From: a virus
DNA length: 38,948 nucleotides
Strand: one strand, 5' to 3'
Virus record (IMG/VR): IMGVR_UViG_3300025141_000275
Span: 1 to 38,948 of that record
Positions 20,445 to 29,381 of the stretch are shown one piece after another; position 1 is the first letter of the stretch; the number at the start of each line of letters is the position of its first letter. The translations under genes were made by a program, and so were the position numbers. The notes below the pieces were generated by a model. It made no database searches, had not been told where the DNA came from, and was given only the letters and a program-made list of their open reading frames with translations.

Positions 20445-20850
20445 CAACTACTCGCATTGACTTCTGGAGCAACGCGACTACGTCCATTACGTCTACTTCT
20501 TCCTGCACTTCAGACGGCTTACCTAAGAATGTGTCGCGCCAAATGGTTAATGCCTGTGCATCACGGCTTTGTACCGCTTGCATCAAGCTTCCGTACCATA
20601 AATCGGCATGACCTTCTTCCATTATTTGGTCCATTAACTGAGTGCGAAGCAGTTTCATGTTCTCGTGCATCTTACTAGTTGGAAATCGAGAGCCTTTAAC
20701 GACATGACCAGACTCATCGCGTACAACTAACTGCTTGTCGATGTTTTCCTGGACTGACCACTTGCCATCTTTGACTAAATCACGCACTGAATCGCGGTCT
20801 AAGTCGCCGTACCCCTTCTCAATGCGCTCTACTAAATCGCTATTTGACAC
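20434..20850 (-). CDS. Putative terminase small subunit
   Basis: The frame starts at GTG 20850 with AGAGGTG four bases upstream. The start overlaps the stop of the winged-helix gene, and the frame runs into the large terminase. This gives 138 residues, typical for a small terminase. The N-terminus (SNSDLVERIEKGYGDLDRDSVRDLVKDG) looks helical with acidic spacing. The middle includes SKMHENMKLLRTQLMDQIMEEGHADLWYGSL, a likely oligomerisation helix. The C-terminus is acidic (PSEVQEEVDVMDVVALLQKS). No classical recognition sequence stands out, so the assignment rests on length, helical pattern and location immediately before terL. An upstream in-frame start would lengthen it inside the previous gene and lacks a good ribosome binding site. 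Confidence 0.6.
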   Translation of the reverse strand: MSNSDLVERIEKGYGDLDRDSVRDLVKDGKWSVQENIDKQLVVRDESGHVVKGSRFPTSKMHENMKLLRTQLMDQIMEEGHADLWYGSLMQAVQSRDAQALTIWRDTFLGKPSEVQEEVDVMDVVALLQKSMRVVDVT

Positions 20851-21109
20851 GGAACACCTCTTTTCCCTCGTCAGTAACTCGTAAGGTTCTTGCAGTGTTG
20901 TTAGCATAACGGATTAAGCCATTGTGCCGCATCTTACTCAGGTAATACTTCACCATAGAAGTGCTGCTAATACCAGCCATGTCTCGTAAATCACGGTACG
21001 AAGGCGAAAATCCATGTTCTCGCTGGTAAAAAAGTATCTGCGCAAAAAGATTCTGCATCTTGTGGTACTTTTTGTCACTACGCATTTTCTCTAATTGGTA
21101 GCTATTCAC
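20840..21109 (-). CDS. LexA-like winged-helix DNA-binding protein (no peptidase domain)
   Basis: The 89-aa product matches the N-terminal DNA-binding domain of LexA almost end to end. It has a helix (LFAQILFYQREHG), FSPSYRDLRDMAG, a recognition-helix region ISSTSMVKYYLSKM (about 47-60) and the wing GLIRYANNTARTLRVTDEG. The C-terminal S24 self-cleaving domain of LexA is absent, so this is not an SOS repressor of the usual kind. The start is GTG at 21109, overlapping the stop of the preceding gene (TAGTG), with GAGGG ten bases upstream. It lies second-closest to the terminase genes in the first part of the late transcript. It probably regulates the phage's own promoters; the GAAC-containing sites nearby are candidate targets (inference). 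Confidence 0.85.
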   Translation of the reverse strand: MNSYQLEKMRSDKKYHKMQNLFAQILFYQREHGFSPSYRDLRDMAGISSTSMVKYYLSKMRHNGLIRYANNTARTLRVTDEGKEVFRVK

Positions 21110-21372
21110 TAGTAATATTCCCTCACACCATTTTTCCACTCTTTCCACCGAATAGCATCACGACCAAGCAGTAGGGCAGCTAATACTTCGTCGTAATTTA
21201 ATTTGCCCGGAATGATGTCGGTCATAAAAGATGGTCCCTCAGAATCAAGAGTTTCTACAATTGTGTTAATACAATGAGTTGTTGCTTTCATTGGGTCTTC
21301 AAATAAAAGAAGTGCCTCTATCGCTTCGATTCTTGCGTCACGTTCACGCTCAGATATTTCTTTATTTGTCAT
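21109..21372 (-). CDS. Hypothetical protein, paralogue of 21362-21673 product
   Basis: This 87-aa product resembles its upstream neighbour: both have an arginine-rich RDARIE/REARIE opening, a DP(M/I)KA...HCI block, TDIIP.KLNY(D/E)EV and ALLLGR(D/N)AI. The pair therefore arose by tandem duplication. I recognise no domain. The conserved HCI and DIIP.KLNY blocks suggest a small helical fold. The ATG at 21372 lies inside the end of the first copy (11-base overlap), and the ribosome binding region GAGAGGCAAT matches that of the first copy, AGGAGGCAAT, as expected from duplication. It is followed by the LexA-like gene. Confidence 0.75.
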   Translation of the reverse strand: MTNKEISERERDARIEAIEALLLFEDPMKATTHCINTIVETLDSEGPSFMTDIIPGKLNYDEVLAALLLGRDAIRWKEWKNGVREYY

Positions 21373-21673
21373 ATTGCCTCTCTCGCTCCTGCTTCGCTAG
21401 GGATTCTTTCACATGCGGATATTCTGACCATTCATCGTCATATTGTTGTTCTTGAATAGCATTACGGCCAAGCAATAGAGCGCCTATTACTTCTTCGTAG
21501 TTTAATTTTTTTGGAATAATGTCTGTTCTAAGTTCATCATAAATATCTTCCCATTCTGCAAGCCTGTCGATGCAGTGATTCATTGCTTTTATCGGGTCTA
21601 CAATTGCGAGATTAGCTTCAAAATGCTCAATTCTCGCTTCACGAACCCAGTCAGGTACTGTTTTATATTGCAT
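21362..21673 (-). CDS. Hypothetical protein, first gene of the late block
   Basis: This 103-aa product heads the minus-strand block, with a perfect AGGAGG four bases before the ATG. It shares the blocks REARIE, DPIKAMNHCID, TDIIPKKLNYEEV and GALLLGRNAI with the next gene. It differs from that gene by an acidic insert (RLAEWEDIYDELR) and a charged tail (DDEWSEYPHVKESLAKQERER). No family is recognised. Being first in the transcript, next to the divergent control region and upstream of a DNA-binding protein, it could have a regulatory or takeover role. That is a guess from position. Within its sequence lies a third copy of a GCTAGGGAT stretch that also appears twice in the control region. Confidence 0.75.
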   Translation of the reverse strand: MQYKTVPDWVREARIEHFEANLAIVDPIKAMNHCIDRLAEWEDIYDELRTDIIPKKLNYEEVIGALLLGRNAIQEQQYDDEWSEYPHVKESLAKQERERQYDK

Positions 21674-21819: not shown

Positions 21820-21846
21820 TTGACCTCCCACCCATAGACCTATACC
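21820..21846 (+). promoter_or_regulatory. Candidate early promoter
   Basis: TTGACC (21820-21825) is followed after 15 bases by TATACC (21841-21846), itself within a TATACCTATAAC stretch. The spacing is short for a sigma-70 promoter, so this is a weak prediction. The predicted start would fall at about 21853-21858, next to the second AGAACATAAG copy (21856-21865). No gene other than the short frame at 21871 lies between here and 22043. Confidence 0.3.
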
Positions 21847-21870
21847 TATAACGCCAGAACATAAGCAAAC

Positions 21871-22029
21871 ATGGCACGTACCTGTACGACGCCGGATCTA
21901 CCGCAACCCGTCGCAAGCACTGCCGGACCGCTCACGACTACACGCAAGGCGAGCCGCACGAGTGCTAGGGATATATCCACCCTGAGCAAACCCAGACCCG
22001 ATCGACTATCCTTAAGAGGTAGTGAATAG
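21871..22029 (+). CDS. Possible small Thr/Ser/Arg-rich ORF (52 aa)
   Basis: An open frame from ATG 21871 to TAG 22027-22029 would encode 52 residues rich in Thr, Ser, Pro and Arg (MARTCTTPDLPQPVAS...). Its stop codon overlaps the AGGAGG that serves the next gene, as in compact operons. Against it: there is no clear ribosome binding site before its ATG, the composition is low complexity, and this stretch is GC-rich, where long open frames arise more easily by chance. It may instead be untranslated leader. It lies just after the proposed early promoter. Confidence 0.3.
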   Translation: MARTCTTPDLPQPVASTAGPLTTTRKASRTSARDISTLSKPRPDRLSLRGSE

Positions 22030-22042
22030 GAGGTTAGTCAAA

Positions 22043-22198
22043 ATGACTACCAAGAACGAGAGCCGATCCACGACGGACGGACGAGAACACGAGTGGCGCT
22101 TAGGTTGGAAGATCAAGGCGCAGAAGTTAACCGAGATCGCAGAGCTTGATTTATTGCACCAAGCGCAAGCGCCTGAAGCATTTAGGGGTCAAGATTAA
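22043..22198 (+). CDS. Hypothetical 51-aa protein, first well-supported early gene
   Basis: ATG 22043 follows a perfect AGGAGG (22029-22034) at eight bases, giving one of the strongest initiation signals in the window. The 51-residue product (MTTKNESRSTTDGREHEWRL, then GWKIKAQKLTEIAELDLL, ending FRGQD) is charged and helical in its middle, with no recognised motif. Its last 53 bases overlap the next gene in a +1 frame. That next gene lacks its own good ribosome binding site, so the two are either coupled or joined by frameshifting. Codons are GC-rich compared with most genes in this window, which suggests a separate origin for this cassette. Confidence 0.6.
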   Translation: MTTKNESRSTTDGREHEWRLGWKIKAQKLTEIAELDLLHQAQAPEAFRGQD

Positions 22199-23078: not shown

Positions 23079-23309
23079 ATGACAACGACGATGGAGGCTG
23101 AGCAGGTGAGGTCCCTGCTCATCCACTTACAAACAATAGATGAGGAATACCTAGCGCACTTCTACGAAGGCTGCGACCCCGCAAGTGTGACATGCATGAG
23201 CTACATTCGCGAGAAGTGGGTGACATTCAGACGCGACCAAGTCGCATGGGTGTTATCACTAGATCCAAATAACTTTGCAAGATTACTAGAGTTAGCAGAT
23301 CAAGGATGA
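23079..23309 (+). CDS. Hypothetical 76-aa early protein
   Basis: ATG 23079 follows AAAGGA nine bases upstream. The 76-residue acidic product is mostly helical (EAEQVRSLLIHLQTIDEEYLAHFYEGC; YIREKWVTFRRDQVAWVLSL; ARLLELADQG) and has two cysteines (about residues 31 and 38). No recognised family. Its stop overlaps the ATG of the next gene by four bases (ATGA), so the two are translated together. Small early proteins of this size in phages often act on host proteins, but nothing in the sequence proves that here. Confidence 0.65.
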   Translation: MTTTMEAEQVRSLLIHLQTIDEEYLAHFYEGCDPASVTCMSYIREKWVTFRRDQVAWVLSLDPNNFARLLELADQG

Positions 23310-23662
23310 ATAGATATATCTTCGGTCAATACGCTCACCCGCTAAAACCAGAACCGATTGATTTTGGCGAGAAGTGTACCGAGTGTGAAAGAGATACATC
23401 TTTCGGCTCAGGATTATTTGTAAATCGAATCCCATCACAAATGGAACATGAATCACCTGATGGTGAGTTTGAATTGCGTGATGGCTGGATGTGTTGGGAG
23501 TGTCAACAAGTGGAGTGTGACGAGTGTCCAATAGGTGAACTGACCCTTGAATATCAGATAGTAGACGGCACGATACTGTGCCCTAGCTGCTTAGATGAAC
23601 AAGTCTCAGTAGGTGCAGTATGGGAAGATCCAGATACAGGATTCTTCAGATACCGAGAGTGA
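23306..23662 (+). CDS. Small zinc-ribbon-like protein with four CxxC pairs
   Basis: The 118-aa product has four CxxC pairs at residues 24/27, 63/66, 71/74 and 92/95 (KCTECERD, MCWECQQ, CDECPIG, LCPSCLD). This is enough to bind two zinc ions in two treble-clef or ribbon units. Between the first and second pair is an acidic loop; no catalytic motif is visible. The start codon overlaps the upstream stop (ATGA). Tandem hairpin terminators lie just after the stop, so this ends a two-gene operon. Such proteins often bind nucleic acid or RNA polymerase; that role is inference. No specific family is recognised. Confidence 0.7.
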   Translation: MNRYIFGQYAHPLKPEPIDFGEKCTECERDTSFGSGLFVNRIPSQMEHESPDGEFELRDGWMCWECQQVECDECPIGELTLEYQIVDGTILCPSCLDEQVSVGAVWEDPDTGFFRYRE

Positions 23663-23668
23663 AATGCA

Positions 23669-23688
23669 GGGAGGCCTTCGGGCCTCCC
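23669..23688 (+). terminator. UUCG tetraloop hairpin after zinc-ribbon gene
   Basis: GGGAGGCC-TTCG-GGCCTCCC is a perfect eight-pair stem with the very stable UUCG loop, starting seven bases after the stop codon. Only GATTTCC follows, so by itself it may act as a 3'-end stabiliser. The next hairpin supplies the U-run. Confidence 0.75.
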
Positions 23689-23706
23689 GATTTCCATACG
23701 TAGACC

Positions 23707-23727
23707 AGGCCACTCGGCCTTTTTTTT
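23707..23727 (+). terminator. Second terminator in tandem
   Basis: AGGCC-ACTC-GGCCT followed by T7 (23721-23727). The stem is short but GC-rich and the U-run is good. Together with the UUCG hairpin just upstream it ends the plus-strand unit before the convergent minus-strand DUF932 gene. Confidence 0.8.
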
Positions 23728-23787
23728 ATTTCCGAAACAATCCCAGAGATAGACAATCACCACCAGTACAGATGTTAGTCTGAGGTA

Positions 23788-23977
23788 GGAAACTTTTTAC
23801 CCTCTATATAGTATTTATTTTTAAGTTACCTATGGGACGAAACGTCAGTCCCTAGTATAGGTCAGCAACAAAAGAGGAAACTGAGTTGCCTTATACATAG
23901 CAACAAATAACTAGAAAAGTTTCCTCGAGTTTCCTATTGAGTTACCTTCGCTCGAGCAGAGAAACTTTAAGGAAACT
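23788..23977. repeat. AGTTNCC repeat field (candidate origin or operator array)
   Basis: In 190 non-coding bases the heptamer AGTTNCC occurs in direct orientation at 23824 (A), 23884 (G), 23918 (T), 23928 (T) and 23940 (A). The inverse, GGAAACT, occurs at 23788, 23876 and 23971, and AGAAACT at 23960. GGAAACT-G-AGTTGCC (23876-23890) forms a near-perfect palindrome, and the two AGTTTCC at 23918/23928 are ten bases apart, one helical turn. GTTGC-N10-GCAAC (23885-23904) and GACG-AAA-CGTC (23836-23846) are further dyads. The stretch is AT-rich between the heptamers. The same motif recurs in the divergent promoter region at 25815. Iterons of an origin or clustered operators would look like this. 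Confidence 0.6.
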
Positions 23978-23991
23978 CTGGAGAAACACAC

Positions 23992-24018
23992 AAAAAAAGA
24001 GACCCTTGCGGGTCCCTC
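23992..24018 (-). terminator. Terminator of the DUF932 cassette
   Basis: On the minus strand AGGGACCC-GCAA-GGGTCTCT forms an eight-pair stem (one G-U) with a four-base loop. It is followed by a run of seven U (plus-strand A-run 23992-23998). It lies about 70 bases beyond the stop of the 24090-25352 gene. Confidence 0.85.
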
Positions 24019-24089
24019 TTAATGAGTGCCTTATTTGAGTTGTAGTGAATCAAAGAAGGTTAGTTGGGGGTACACTCCTGTACATACTA

Positions 24090-25352
24090 CTACAGTATCC
24101 GAACTGTATCAGTTTCAGTTTTACCATCTGGATAATGCGCAGTAATCTCAGCCATTAGATTAGGCTTGCCCGTTAGCTCATTGAATGAAGCTCGACCTGC
24201 TGCCACAGCATAATCATCAACAACTTTACCGAAGCCCCACATCTGCTTATTAGTGTCACCCGTCAGCACTGAAGCAAAGTTAGTATCGAGACTACGAATG
24301 TTTTTAGGACGCTCTAGGCTGCCATGCTGTAGATACTCTGTACCAGCCTGTAATGCATGATAGAGAGTGTTGCCACGCTCACGCGCATAGTTCTTGAACA
24401 CGCCATCCTTGATATCTACTAGGTTACGCTGCTTGCGATTTAAGGTAGGAACCTCATCACCTTCAGACAACGTAATCCCATCATCAGACCAAGTGTAGAA
24501 AGGATCTTTAGGATCGAGTGACATGGTGAGCTTGCTGCCCTTACCTGTTACAAGATCTTGCCTCCCAAAGTAATCGTCTACAAGCTCGACAAAATTATCC
24601 ATATCGATTTCAACTTCAGATAAATTACCTAGCCATTCACGATACCTAGCCCACTGTTGAGACTCTCGAGTCAGAGCACCTTGCAAAGCTTTTATCTTTT
24701 GGCTAATGTCGCCAGAGTGACGAATCGCCACAGCTTTAGTTGCCTGTCCAAAACTAGCTACCAGAGTATTCATACACACTGGACGCACACTAGTTTGGAA
24801 TACGCGCAACGAATGAGCGCCTACCTTACTATCGTGAGCTACCAAGTATGAGTCTATAGAATCTTCAGAGTCCCCCGGTATGTTAAACCCATCGTCAGGC
24901 AAGTCAGCAACAAAGAACACGTCACGCCCACCACGCAAACTACCTGCACTCGACCACTTGATATCGCTAGTAGGGGTAGCTGATACCTTGGATAGTACCT
25001 CAGCTAATTGAGAGTTCTGAACAGCCTTGAATGATTTACCAACCACTCCCAGAGTATCCACGTACTCAAATTTTTTAGCAGGAATATCAGTCCATGGTGT
25101 TAGAGGCTTTTGCTCAGTCAATTGCCATCGCTCAACAAATTGAGTATCTGAAATTAACGAGCGACCCACATCACCATGCTCACGATTAAAAGCAGGAGAC
25201 AGCTTGACCTCCCAATCAAGATTAGCTGCCTTCAACATTTCACCTGCAGTCACTGAGTCACTTACACTTTGGCCCAGACCATGCCACGGAAGCTTACGTC
25301 CCGTGAATGCAAAACTTTCCTTACCATTTCTACGCTCTATTTCATGTGCCAT
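24090..25352 (-). CDS. DUF932 phage/plasmid-like protein
   Basis: The 420-aa product matches the DUF932 family. It has an N-terminal MAHEIERRNG...FAFTGRKLPWHGLGQ, then TAGEMLKAANLDWEV, later YVDTLGVVGKSFKAVQN, a central FFVADLP segment, and DSYLVAHDSKVGAHSLRVF followed by TSVRPVCMNTLV. Length is as usual. Its biochemical role is unknown in general; proteins of this family are spread among phages and plasmids. It is on the opposite strand to the surrounding early genes, sits five bases after a small partner gene, and has its own terminator. The ATG follows AAAGGA. The flanking intergenic regions carry the AGTTNCC/GTTTCC repeats, which suggests cassette-specific control. Confidence 0.85.
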   Translation of the reverse strand: MAHEIERRNGKESFAFTGRKLPWHGLGQSVSDSVTAGEMLKAANLDWEVKLSPAFNREHGDVGRSLISDTQFVERWQLTEQKPLTPWTDIPAKKFEYVDTLGVVGKSFKAVQNSQLAEVLSKVSATPTSDIKWSSAGSLRGGRDVFFVADLPDDGFNIPGDSEDSIDSYLVAHDSKVGAHSLRVFQTSVRPVCMNTLVASFGQATKAVAIRHSGDISQKIKALQGALTRESQQWARYREWLGNLSEVEIDMDNFVELVDDYFGRQDLVTGKGSKLTMSLDPKDPFYTWSDDGITLSEGDEVPTLNRKQRNLVDIKDGVFKNYARERGNTLYHALQAGTEYLQHGSLERPKNIRSLDTNFASVLTGDTNKQMWGFGKVVDDYAVAAGRASFNELTGKPNLMAEITAHYPDGKTETDTVRIL

Positions 25353-25357
25353 TTTTA

Positions 25358-25675
25358 TTAGTCCTTTACTATTTCTGTTTCCATTAAACTCATGTTGGGT
25401 ACAACTGGAGATAACGTAAGCTCAGCAATTATTTCTTTTAATTTCTGAATATTCTCGTCAATCTCATTCGGCCTGTATACGCCTATATACAGAGTCCCAT
25501 CACCATCGTTAGAAGTAATCTCGAATGAATCAGCGTTGAATTCAATCCGATCTACATCTTTGTCAATGTCTTCTACCGCTGCAAGCAGAGCATTTAACAT
25601 GTCTATCACGCGCACTGTTTTTCTCTCATCAATCTCGGCTAGTGCCTCCGAAATTAAAGTTTGTTCAGGTGTCAT
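25358..25675 (-). CDS. Hypothetical partner of the DUF932 protein (105 aa)
   Basis: I place the start at ATG 25675 (MTPEQTLISEALAEI) because AAGGA lies six bases upstream; a longer frame up to 25732 lacks such a site. The product is acidic and helical at the start (RKTVRVIDMLNALLAAVEDIDKDVDRIEF). A beta hairpin follows (FEITSNDGDGTLYIGVYRP), and it ends with a second helix (ENIQKLKEIIAELTL). No family is recognised. It is co-transcribed with and just upstream of the DUF932 gene, whose ribosome binding site overlaps its stop. A complex between the two products is plausible but not shown. Confidence 0.65.
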   Translation of the reverse strand: MTPEQTLISEALAEIDERKTVRVIDMLNALLAAVEDIDKDVDRIEFNADSFEITSNDGDGTLYIGVYRPNEIDENIQKLKEIIAELTLSPVVPNMSLMETEIVKD

Positions 25676-25790
25676 TATGTTTCCTTTCACTTGACACTTC
25701 TTCCTAGCTAGTAGCGTAACATATATTCGCAATGCTATGTAAAATAAGGTGCTTAAGATAATCAGTGACTCCAGGCATGTAGAACAATTG

Positions 25791-25831
25791 TGGTAAAATA
25801 ATGGAGCGTCAACAAGTTTCCAAAAGGAAAC
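25791..25831 (+). promoter_or_regulatory. Extended -10 promoter and GTTTCC/GGAAAC dyad
   Basis: TGGTAAAAT (25791-25799) is an extended -10 element for the replication operon; no clear -35 is seen. Sixteen bases downstream AGTTTCC-AAAA-GGAAAC (25815-25831) forms a dyad, and AAGTTTCTCG follows at 25836. The motif equals that of the repeat field at 23788-23977. TGTAGAACAA at 25778-25787 also occurs in the other divergent region (21696-21705). The position just after the promoter fits an operator. Confidence 0.5.
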
Positions 25832-25901
25832 AAAAAAGTTTCTCGACTGTGGAGGTCAGTTGTGAGGACGTAATAAAAAGTGTATAGAAAGGAAAAGGAA
25901 T

Positions 25902-26570
25902 ATGGCAAAGCAATTGCCCCCAAACATGAAAGGTTATGTAATGGTAGAAGATAGGATTCCTATCTTTTACAAGGACTACCCAGATGGTCGAATCACGTCA
26001 GAGGTAGTGGCGTTTACAGAAGATTCAATCATCACGAGATCGTTTATCTACAGGAACGCAGAAGAACAAGAAAAAAATCTTCCGTTATCAACAGGGATTT
26101 GCAAGGAAGTCTTTACTAATGGACAGCCTAAGTATGTTGAGGTTTCGGAGACAAGCTCAATCGGACGCGCATTAGCAAACTATAATATCCGAGGCGAAGA
26201 CGAGGACGGCAACCAAGCCAAGCGACCAAGTCTTGAGGAAATGCAAAGTGTTCAGGCATTGCAAGAGGACGCTGCTAATCCACAGACAGGACATTTAGTT
26301 GAGGCTGCTGTAGCTGCCGGTGGAACACTTATAAATTCCACGCCACCACTTACTCAGGATGATTACGTAGGTAGCGCAGGTGAAAACGAGTTTATCCAAA
26401 CTCAGACACCAGTAGCTGTTAGCAACACGCCACAATGCCCTACAGGTCATGGCGATATGGTATGGAAAGAAGGCATAAGCCAGAAAACCAACGAACCGTA
26501 TGCATTCTGGTCCTGTAGTCAGTTTCCTGCCTGTAGAAGTTCTGCTGACAAAGACGGCAAAGTTAAATAA
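25902..26570 (+). CDS. Putative ssDNA annealing/binding protein with zinc-ribbon tail
   Basis: The 222-aa protein opens the replication operon. Residues 78-96 (KYVEVSETSSIGRALANYN) match the 'ETS(S/A)IGRAL' signature I recall from ERF/Rad52-like phage annealing proteins and related early proteins. A disordered acidic/Pro-rich linker (about 100-175) leads to a C-terminal zinc-ribbon-like unit with C179, H183, C205 and C211 (QCPTGHGDMVWKEG and WSCSQFPACRSS), similar to the DNA-binding ribbons at the ends of topoisomerases. Two overlapping AAGGA sites precede the ATG. The role would be to coat or anneal single strands during replication or recombination; nuclease genes downstream in the same operon fit this. 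Confidence 0.6.
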   Translation: MAKQLPPNMKGYVMVEDRIPIFYKDYPDGRITSEVVAFTEDSIITRSFIYRNAEEQEKNLPLSTGICKEVFTNGQPKYVEVSETSSIGRALANYNIRGEDEDGNQAKRPSLEEMQSVQALQEDAANPQTGHLVEAAVAAGGTLINSTPPLTQDDYVGSAGENEFIQTQTPVAVSNTPQCPTGHGDMVWKEGISQKTNEPYAFWSCSQFPACRSSADKDGKVK

Positions 26571-26824
26571 TGTCGAGGATAACCAAAGACGACATAGAGA
26601 ACAGGCACATAATTCATTTAGTCGAAGTCAGTTGCTATTGGGATGATGGCGATTGTTCTGATGTCATACCCATGAAGTATGAGTGTGACAGTCGGGAGAG
26701 TTGCCCATTGTGTTCACATGACGCAATGCATGAAGCAAAAAACAACTGGACAGATAAGTCAGCATGGATGGAAGACTTAGCTGATGAGTTAAATGAGATA
26801 TCTGATTGGTTAAAGGAGGATTGA
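26570..26824 (+). CDS. Hypothetical Cys-rich 84-aa protein
   Basis: The ATG overlaps the upstream stop (TAATG). The 84-aa acidic protein has C22, C29, C39, C45, C48, H50 and H54 (SCYWDDGDCS, YECDSRESCPLCSHDAMHE), a likely single zinc site. A helical, Trp-containing C-terminus follows (SAWMEDLADELNEISDWLKED). No family is recognised. It lies between the annealing-like protein and the primase-helicase, whose AGGAGG ribosome binding site overlaps its end. An accessory replication factor is possible, on context only. Confidence 0.65.
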   Translation: MSRITKDDIENRHIIHLVEVSCYWDDGDCSDVIPMKYECDSRESCPLCSHDAMHEAKNNWTDKSAWMEDLADELNEISDWLKED

Positions 26825-26826
26825 AA

Positions 26827-28956
26827 GTGTCAGAATGGATCAGTAATGAACCAGACACCATCATAGCTGCTGACGATTTGAAGGAAGCATTATGGGAAGC
26901 AAGGGGTAGACCGCCGAGAGACGGTTTATGCCCTTGCCCACCAGGCTGCGCTAACGAGCACGACGATTCAAACCCGTCGTTTAACATCAGAACTATAGAC
27001 AATAAGTTGTTATTCAAATGCTTTTCATCTTGCAATCAGCAAGAAGCACTTCAAGCACTTATTGATAATGGATGGTGGAAAGCAAGTGAAGATGGTGAAT
27101 GGGACACAGCTTATGAGGACATGGCGAGAGAGTCAGGAATAGGTTTAGCAATGGATGGAGAAAATTATTGGGAGAATGATTTAGCCGCCACACATAATTA
27201 TAAATATTTTGATGAGGCAGGAAAGCCTATTGCAATTCATTTGCGATGGGATAGGGAAGACGGAACTAAATCAATGAGTTGGAAGCTACCTACTGAGGGT
27301 GCTTCTCATGGTTTAGGTGGTTTGAAAATGGAGCAAATCCCGTTATACGGATTAGAACAGCTAATCAACCAACCAGACGCACCAGTGTTTTTTGTTGAAG
27401 GCGAGAAGGCTGCTGAAGCCTGTTGGGAACAAGGCTTAGTAGCTGTTACCAACGCAGGAGGGAGCGGCCAGAAGAAATTCGGTTCAACTCTTGACCCATT
27501 AATGGGTAGAAAAATCTATTTATGGGCTGATAATGACGCTGTAGGACGCAAATTTATGATTAATTTGAAGTCTGAGCTACGTAAAATTACTTCAGATGTC
27601 AACGAAATCCATGTAAACGTGCCTTATAAGGGTGACGCATACGACTATTTTGCTACTGGTGGAGACATTGACGGCCTCTTAAAGAGGTCTGAGCCTGTCT
27701 TAATTCACCTCGAGCATGATAAATATAGAGTTGAACTACCTACTATTAGTGGTATTTTGCAACTTGAATTTTCTGGGGTGATACCACAGCGAGGCGCAGT
27801 ACAAGCTGATGCAACTATTACTGTGGATAATGAGAACTTCCGAACTCGGTTAAATCTCATGTCTACCAGTGCTAGGCAAGCGTGGATACGTGAAGCTAAG
27901 CAAGTATTTTCTGGATTTGAAATAGATTGGGCGCCGACCCTAAACAAAGCTATTGGCATGGTGACGACAGCAGTATTTGTTGACGATACTTTATCCGATC
28001 AAGCAGAGGCTGAAGAACCGCCTGAGTACAGATTTTTGGTACAGGAAACAATACCAGAAGGCTCCGTTTCATTATGGTTTGGCGATGGCTCGAGCTTAAA
28101 AACTACGAGCCTATTGCAATTGTCTACCTGTGTTGCATACGGTCACCCGTGGGCAGGACGTGAGACAGTGCCAACTAAAATGATGTTGCTTGATTACGAG
28201 AACGACGAAAACAATTTCATTCGCTACACCAGAAGAATGCAAGACGCATTAGGCATAGTCCCACAAAAAGGACGCATGTTTTATGAGAATGCTAGAGGAA
28301 TAGCTTTGAATGATTTAGTCGAGCGGCTGCGCATGTATATAGAGCGCCACGGAATCGGACTTATTGTGATTGACTCCGGGGCACTTGCCTGTGGTGGAAA
28401 GCCCGAGGAAGCTGAATCTGCGCTGACATTTTTCAATTCGTTAGCAAGGTTAGGGGATGATATAACGATAGTTGTGATATGCCATATCACTAAGTCTGCA
28501 TTGTCTACCCCAGCCATGAAGCGTGAAGCCACTAAGAAGCCATTTGGCTCTACCTTTTGGCACTCGTCTGCTCGGGCGACATTTTTTGTTGAACGGGATG
28601 AAGTTACTAAGGAACAGTTTGTAGTCAAGTTTAAAAACAGGAAGACAAATATTTCTGCACCACTTGACGACTTTGCTTTAGAGGTTACGTTTGACGACCC
28701 AGACGGTGGTATTTATTTATCGCCGATGGATTTTAGCCAAGTGAAATTAATGCAAGAACAGAGCAAAGAAAAGAAATCTCGAAAGGATGAAATCTTAGGT
28801 TTGTTGCAAGATACGCAGATGAGCTTGAATGATATCGCGTCAATACTTGAAGTCGAAACAGATACTAAAAAGGTGAAATCATTACGCTCTCAATTGAATA
28901 GGTTTGAGCGTGATGGATTGATAATGAAAACTGAAGAAGGTTGGACATTGGCATAA
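26827..28956 (+). CDS. Primase-helicase (CHC2-like zinc site, TOPRIM, RepA/RecA-fold helicase)
   Basis: I use GTG 26827 as start, because AGGAGG sits seven bases upstream, giving 709 aa. Visible parts in order: a zinc site with C35, C37, H45, C65 and C69 (LCPCPPGCANEHDD; FKCFSSCNQ). Then a TOPRIM domain with FFVEGEKAAEAC (about 187-198) and YLWADNDAVGRKF (about 232-244). Then a RecA-fold ATPase with Walker A WFGDGSSLKTTSLL (about 417-430), LLDYENDENNF, Walker B LIVIDSGALACGG (about 511-523) and VVICHITKSA. Last is a C-terminal winged-helix-like segment (LNDIASILEV..., about 655-709). It would unwind the fork and lay primers, with elongation left to a host polymerase. Confidence 0.9.
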   Translation: MSEWISNEPDTIIAADDLKEALWEARGRPPRDGLCPCPPGCANEHDDSNPSFNIRTIDNKLLFKCFSSCNQQEALQALIDNGWWKASEDGEWDTAYEDMARESGIGLAMDGENYWENDLAATHNYKYFDEAGKPIAIHLRWDREDGTKSMSWKLPTEGASHGLGGLKMEQIPLYGLEQLINQPDAPVFFVEGEKAAEACWEQGLVAVTNAGGSGQKKFGSTLDPLMGRKIYLWADNDAVGRKFMINLKSELRKITSDVNEIHVNVPYKGDAYDYFATGGDIDGLLKRSEPVLIHLEHDKYRVELPTISGILQLEFSGVIPQRGAVQADATITVDNENFRTRLNLMSTSARQAWIREAKQVFSGFEIDWAPTLNKAIGMVTTAVFVDDTLSDQAEAEEPPEYRFLVQETIPEGSVSLWFGDGSSLKTTSLLQLSTCVAYGHPWAGRETVPTKMMLLDYENDENNFIRYTRRMQDALGIVPQKGRMFYENARGIALNDLVERLRMYIERHGIGLIVIDSGALACGGKPEEAESALTFFNSLARLGDDITIVVICHITKSALSTPAMKREATKKPFGSTFWHSSARATFFVERDEVTKEQFVVKFKNRKTNISAPLDDFALEVTFDDPDGGIYLSPMDFSQVKLMQEQSKEKKSRKDEILGLLQDTQMSLNDIASILEVETDTKKVKSLRSQLNRFERDGLIMKTEEGWTLA

Positions 28957-29381
28957 TGGGCTACTACAAACAGAAAGAGATAGAGGCAATGGATGATGAC
29001 GGACTAGCTAAAGAAGCTATTAAGAAAAGGAATAGAAATAACAGAGCAAGAGGTAAGGTGTATGAAAACAGAGCGGCAGAAATCGTTGGAGGGAAAAGAA
29101 ATCTCGACAAGTCAAGACCGCATACGGATGTTGAGAATGCGTTCTCGGTCTACGAGATTAAATCAACACAATCAAAGACCCCAACATGGTTGGAGAAGGC
29201 CACGGGCCAACTCAAACTGGCAGCTACAGAGTCGGATAAGTCAGCAGGAGGAGTAATAAAAATTTACACCAAAGGTTCTAAGGCTCGATTCTTTTTGATT
29301 AAAGAAATATACGAAGGAAAAGGAAGCATGTTTTTTGAAGGTGAAGGGAACAATTTTTATGAAAATAACGAACAAAGCTAA
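28956..29381 (+). CDS. PD-(D/E)XK nuclease, putative Holliday-junction resolvase
   Basis: The ATG at 28956 overlaps the upstream stop (TAATG), giving 141 aa. A basic N-terminus (KKRNRNNRARGKVYENRAAEIVGG) carries the conserved Glu37. D58 (HTDVENAFSVY) and EIK (E67-x-K69, YEIKSTQSK) then complete a PD-(D/E)XK active site. A further TGQLKLAA helix and RFFLIKEIYE strand fit a compact archaeal-Hjc/VRR-like resolvase fold. Length is typical of small resolvases. Placed after the primase-helicase and before an exonuclease-like gene, it probably trims or resolves branched DNA before packaging. The fold is inferred from the motif; substrate specificity is unknown. Confidence 0.7.
   Translation: MGYYKQKEIEAMDDDGLAKEAIKKRNRNNRARGKVYENRAAEIVGGKRNLDKSRPHTDVENAFSVYEIKSTQSKTPTWLEKATGQLKLAATESDKSAGGVIKIYTKGSKARFFLIKEIYEGKGSMFFEGEGNNFYENNEQS

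Follow-up and report, generated by a model that had tools for sequence, protein, structure and literature searches.

A field of AGTTNCC repeats between convergent genes of an uncultured tailed phage is a probable iteron-type replication origin

The repeat field and its setting

The window, by which we mean the whole 38,948-base stretch of DNA analyzed here, is a record of an uncultured tailed phage in which terminase, major head protein and tail proteins were matched. The ends of another contig, 3300020336_000019 (L239, L343), match the window at about 23432 and about 22512. Save for a short gap, this contig seems to span the genome with its order permuted circularly, and the window record is probably near complete.

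There is a non-coding region of 427 bases between two convergent genes at 23306-23662 (+) and 24090-25352 (-). The second gene encodes a DUF932 protein (Pfam PF06067), and it ends beside an array of AGTTNCC iterons at 23788-23977. A motif scan gives eight exact copies, at 23788(-), 23824(+), 23876(-), 23884(+), 23918(+), 23928(+), 23940(+) and 23971(-), and a ninth, AGTTTCT at 23960(-), has one mismatch. The original prediction of nine heptamers, five direct and four inverse, was right in both count and coordinates. It had also pointed to a pair with helical-turn spacing and to a palindrome, and both are present: the copies at 23918 and 23928 are 10 bp apart, and two facing iterons form the imperfect palindrome GGAAACT-G-AGTTGCC, read directly at 23876-23890.

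The array is not random. The eight exact copies in the 427-base region compare with 0.40 expected, and none of 5000 dinucleotide shuffles had as many. When the whole record was scanned for clusters of 7-mers, with one N allowed per 7-mer, the field was the largest cluster (8 copies), whereas ten shuffled genomes gave clusters of 4-5. The other 22 copies of AGTTNCC are scattered across the 38.9 kb, for a whole-record expectation of 17. These are short repeats at ordered spacing in non-coding DNA, as in iteron origins.

Within the field lies an AT-rich core, TCTATATAGTATTTATT, at 23803-23819 (+). Two 30-base segments, which begin at 23798 and 23808, have 77-80% AT, and the field has in this respect the AT-rich region of an iteron origin. 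The palindrome CTATATAG inside the core is found once in the window record. Counted from the core, the repeats stand at -13(-), 21(+), 75(-), 81(+), 115(+), 125(+), 137(+), 159(-) and 170(-), i.e., one iteron to the left and eight to the right. We presume that the core is the melting or helicase entry element. Between the core-proximal iteron and the palindrome there is an inverted repeat around CCTATGGGACGAAACGTCAGTCCCTAGTATAGG at 23827-23864 (+). It folds as a hairpin better than shuffled sequences do in the window (z -3.9), but its counterpart in a relative with other repeats (L036, described below) is not clearly distinct from shuffles (z -0.6), and the hairpin is at most weakly suggested as a priming or cruciform element. 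Thus the earlier description of the field holds for the repeats, while it overlooked the core, the hairpin and the relative in which the repeats are swapped.

On both sides the array is bounded, as had been claimed, by terminator-like sites, and these face inwards. For the rightward genes, a terminator and hairpin scan finds a hairpin at 23669-23688 and a terminator at 23707-23727 (+). For the leftward DUF932 operon, the site is at 24020-23995 (-), and L036 has a counterpart at 7248-7223, to the right of its array.

Changed repeats, conserved geometry and the primase-helicase

Two relatives carry the window's repeats. In these (L017 and L018) the primase-helicase is 97% identical and the array is nearly unchanged. 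Two others, L036 and L065 (contigs 2788500220_000005 and _000004), are relatives at about 72% and share the window's gene order; the L065 contig is apparently the same as one binned in a Halobacteriovorax MAG (L164). In the window, two adjacent small genes at 21109-21673 match a single L036 gene with 90% and 47% identity, an apparent tandem duplication. A whole-DNA similarity search of the phage collection gave no match to the window, and further scans for relatives through the primase-helicase, the DUF932 protein and a portal-like protein gave no additional origin sequence. Relatives collected through the exonuclease (L243-L312) were set aside as comparators, since they share the exonuclease with the window and not the primase-helicase. 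Two of them, L243 and L244, also carry a relative of the 28941-29381 protein.

The core is identical in all four relatives. In the syntenic intergenic slot of L036 and L065, however, the repeat differs and is (T)GTTGCG / CGCAACA. The L036 repeats stand at -13(-), 20(+), 75(-), 80(+), 124(+), 134(+), 161(-) and 172(-) from the core. All eight pair with window repeats within 3 bp and on the same strand, and the window's palindrome has a counterpart there, CGCAACACGTTGCG, at an equal distance from the core. None of 100,000 random placements matched as well, a figure to be read as a guide and not as a formal P value because both the core frame and the words were picked with the sequences already in view. 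Positions and strands thus match in spite of the different word: the heptamer has changed, but its spacing and orientation are kept. Selection on spacing together with an altered word would fit a protein-bound array whose reader has changed.

Since the iteron word has changed, its reader is expected to have changed too. The primase-helicase encoded at 26806-28956 (+), the presumed initiator, has a Cys-rich primase finger (read from the sequence), a TOPRIM domain, a RepA-like AAA_25 domain (PF13481, E 4e-22) with homology to RepA of WO phages, and a C-terminal winged helix. Few relatives of this protein are known. The protein is 75.9% identical to that of L036 over residues 1-640 but only 28.9% over residues 641-716 (28726-28956, +). 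Against L018, which has the window's repeats, the two parts are 96.2% and 100% identical. Thus, in this single sequence contrast, residues 641-716 have co-diverged with the iteron word, and we presume that they are the iteron reader. An 87-residue model of the C-terminus has a winged-helix block with pLDDT 90-94 from residue 30; AF2 modeled the full-length protein poorly (mean pLDDT 42), and the C-terminal domain alone was usable. The model matches winged-helix structures with Z up to 9.4, for a fold that is common, and the L036 copy of this segment gives weak HTH profile hits. The winged helix could instead serve protein contacts. Also in the window, an 84-aa gene at 26570-26824 has no tblastn match in L017 or L018 and is 29% identical in L036; it is possibly accessory cargo inside the replication operon.

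The origin reading and its competitors

We consider it likely that the array is the replication origin of the phage, and propose that the primase-helicase uses its C-terminal winged helix to read the iterons, opens the core, loads and primes. The original prediction had offered an iteron-type origin as one alternative, and this is well supported by comparison, through the conserved geometry with a changed iteron, the conserved core, the terminators, the co-diverged winged helix and analogous arrays in other phages. From the sequence we infer binding, melting, loading, origin activity and the identity of the binder. Copies of the primase-helicase would bind the AGTTNCC iterons via the winged helix (residues about 655-716), with the core flanked on both sides and the spacing fixed. 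The assembled complex would strain and melt the AT-rich core CTATATAGTATTTATT, the RepA-like helicase would be loaded onto the opened strands, and the primase domain would lay the first primers. The terminators at the edges are expected to keep transcription from entering the array. GC skew, which had been proposed as a check for an origin, was discarded as a signal; it tracks gene strand only and is uninformative. An origin with DnaA boxes (TTATNCACA) was also rejected: the window has 41 near-matches against 49 expected, and there is no cluster at the field. Elsewhere, in a phage contig, DnaA-box-like sequences are grouped in a short stretch that looks non-coding (L267:157-271), with TTATCCACA several times among them; this is a candidate DnaA-dependent origin, and L312:1101-1337 is similar.

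The counterpoint to this assignment is position, as the primase-helicase gene starts 2.8 kb from the array and the DUF932 gene adjoins it. Separate initiators act on iterons in RSF1010-type or other iteron plasmids, and the array could be a replication origin read by another protein, most plausibly the adjacent DUF932 protein, which would recruit the primase-helicase. We regard this as unlikely, though it is the best of the competing readings. The DUF932 gene ends 113 bases from the last window iteron, and a DUF932 gene also flanks the L036 array. The protein is 99% identical to that of L018 and 63% to that of L036, with the differences from L036 lying around residues 246-320 and at the C-terminus. 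The 25902-26570 protein, in its second half, likewise diverges from L036, and the winged helix is thus not the only segment that does so. In Arthrobacter phage AWGoat, a separate gene annotated as a RepA-like initiator precedes the primase-helicase. However, the DUF932 loci of other phages (L004-L016) have no such array and no core, Pfam recognizes no DNA-binding domain in the DUF932 protein, and the array of the Wolbachia phage WOVitB adjoins the RepA gene in a stretch where no DUF932 gene is annotated. A literature search on DUF932 function found no paper. Of the binders proposed originally, the DUF932 protein stays a candidate, but its partner encoded at 25358-25732 is an unlikely one: we rejected it as array reader, since it is 40% identical to its L018 counterpart although the repeats are the same. 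It is a fast-evolving small protein of the DUF932 operon, whose neighbors are 97-99% identical to those of L018. The C-terminus of the primase-helicase had not been named among the binders.

It is improbable that the array is instead a multi-operator or silencer, which a phage repressor would bind for transcription control or by which it would be titrated. Arrays of short inverted and direct sites do serve as operators, and the window encodes a repressor-like protein (20840-21148, phrog_362). Yet both neighboring genes end here, with terminator-like sites before the array, and no sigma-70-like promoter was found in 23663-24089. In the divergent region 21832-22145 there is no copy of the motif, and in 25733-25901 there is one. 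Moreover, an operator does not predict a core shared with sites beside the helicase genes of unrelated phages. The operator alternative of the original prediction is accordingly disfavored. Least probable of all is another cis site, such as a partition centromere, an att recombination site flanked by arm sites, a packaging site or a structural RNA, even though repeat arrays and hairpins occur in each of them. No integrase, recombinase or ParB was found among the window proteins searched against PHROGs, the gene for the large terminase begins 3.3 kb off, and no Rfam family reaches threshold (best E 0.63).

Comparison with known systems

The origins of phage-inducible chromosomal islands (PICIs) have an AT-rich region between two sets of iterons, directly 3' of rep (PMC6092414), and SaPI Rep and SCCmec Cch2 read iterons through a C-terminal domain (PMC7581432). 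The window resembles these in its short iterons around an AT-rich region, and its own initiator helicase is presumed, like theirs, to read the iterons through a C-terminal DNA-binding domain (PMC6092414, PMC7581432). The differences are several. The window helicase is RepA-like (AAA_25) and forms one protein with a TOPRIM primase, the core has one iteron to its left and eight to its right, and the window is a phage genome and not a satellite. The PICI origin is directly 3' of rep or pri-rep, whereas the array here is 3' of the DUF932 gene, between convergent genes. Because of this location and the different helicase family, we do not assign the array to the PICI kind.

The oriV of RSF1010 (IncQ) works with a RepA helicase, a RepB' primase and a RepC initiator, and has iterons, an AT-rich segment and possible priming hairpins. 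The window protein shares with this system the RepA-type AAA_25 helicase. The RSF1010 iterons, however, are read by the separate RepC, and no RepC-like protein was matched among the window proteins searched, several of which match nothing.

The initiator also has a likeness in WOVitB. The RepA of this phage is homologous to the window primase-helicase in its TOPRIM and helicase domains as well as in the C-terminal segment (hhalign E 2e-15, columns 128-707), and ten AGWTGGC repeats (0.04 expected) are found with CTATATAG among them. In contrast to the window, this array is directly 3' of the repA gene, and its iteron is different. AGTTNCC, TGTTGCG and AGTTGGC are similar words. We found no published description of the WOVitB origin in our literature search. 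For two more WO RepA genes (L347, L348), a weak TTCCTA array is the most that was seen. A GTTNGGA array follows a Zn/TOPRIM primase gene in Synechococcus phage S-H1, with a primase match that spans 80 residues only. A further phage contig has seven TGGAACA/TGTTCCA repeats (L305:4075-4271), and there are tandem CTTATTTTGGT-like repeats at L301:5418-5554.

A further likeness is to the putative origins of phages with D5-type SF3 helicases, which belong to an unrelated helicase family. A scan for the 17-mer core gave 54 viral stretches and at least 120 genomic stretches. For the 16-mer there are 134 loci, 92 of them inside ORFs of 120 aa or more; most look like chance matches in coding DNA, and the core alone is therefore no origin marker. 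However, two unrelated phage families have the identical 16 bases outside coding DNA and in the same orientation, at 98-126 bp past the D5 helicase gene. One family (L026/L076/L077/L079) has GGTTAY iterons around the core and the other (L045/L047/L054) has GGGAATA iterons; words and orientations differ from those of the window. The distances from the core match between the two families (-25/-23, 50/52 and 60/61). Among the core-bearing loci, the D5 helicase gave no further strong match. L078, a 67% relative, differs in its iteron (GGGTTAA) and has its core interrupted, and comparison of the helicase C-termini of L076 and L078 gave no clear signal for the iteron change. Several Bacillales D5 loci have repeat arrays near the gene end and the core is missing, and the core is therefore not universal. 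Repeats at three such loci (L212, L213, L210) are AGTTACC / AAGTTAC-like, close to the window word.

Convergence on an AT-rich string is a possible cause of the shared core, of which our literature search found no mention. More tentatively, the core could be a portable origin element used with unrelated helicases (RepA-like and D5-type SF3). Each lineage would then keep the core and the iteron distances, and joint changes of the iteron word and its winged helix would create new origin specificities. Should the shared core have a meaning, origins in unrelated phages could be sought by its sequence.

Few environmental phages have a known origin. In this case a probable origin can be named from sequence, along with its AT-rich core and a probable reader domain, and the natural swap of the repeat word at constant geometry makes recognition directly testable. 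Compared with the known systems, the field would be an ordinary kind of element, an iteron origin, in a new setting, and as a natural experiment on origin specificity it appears unusually clear.
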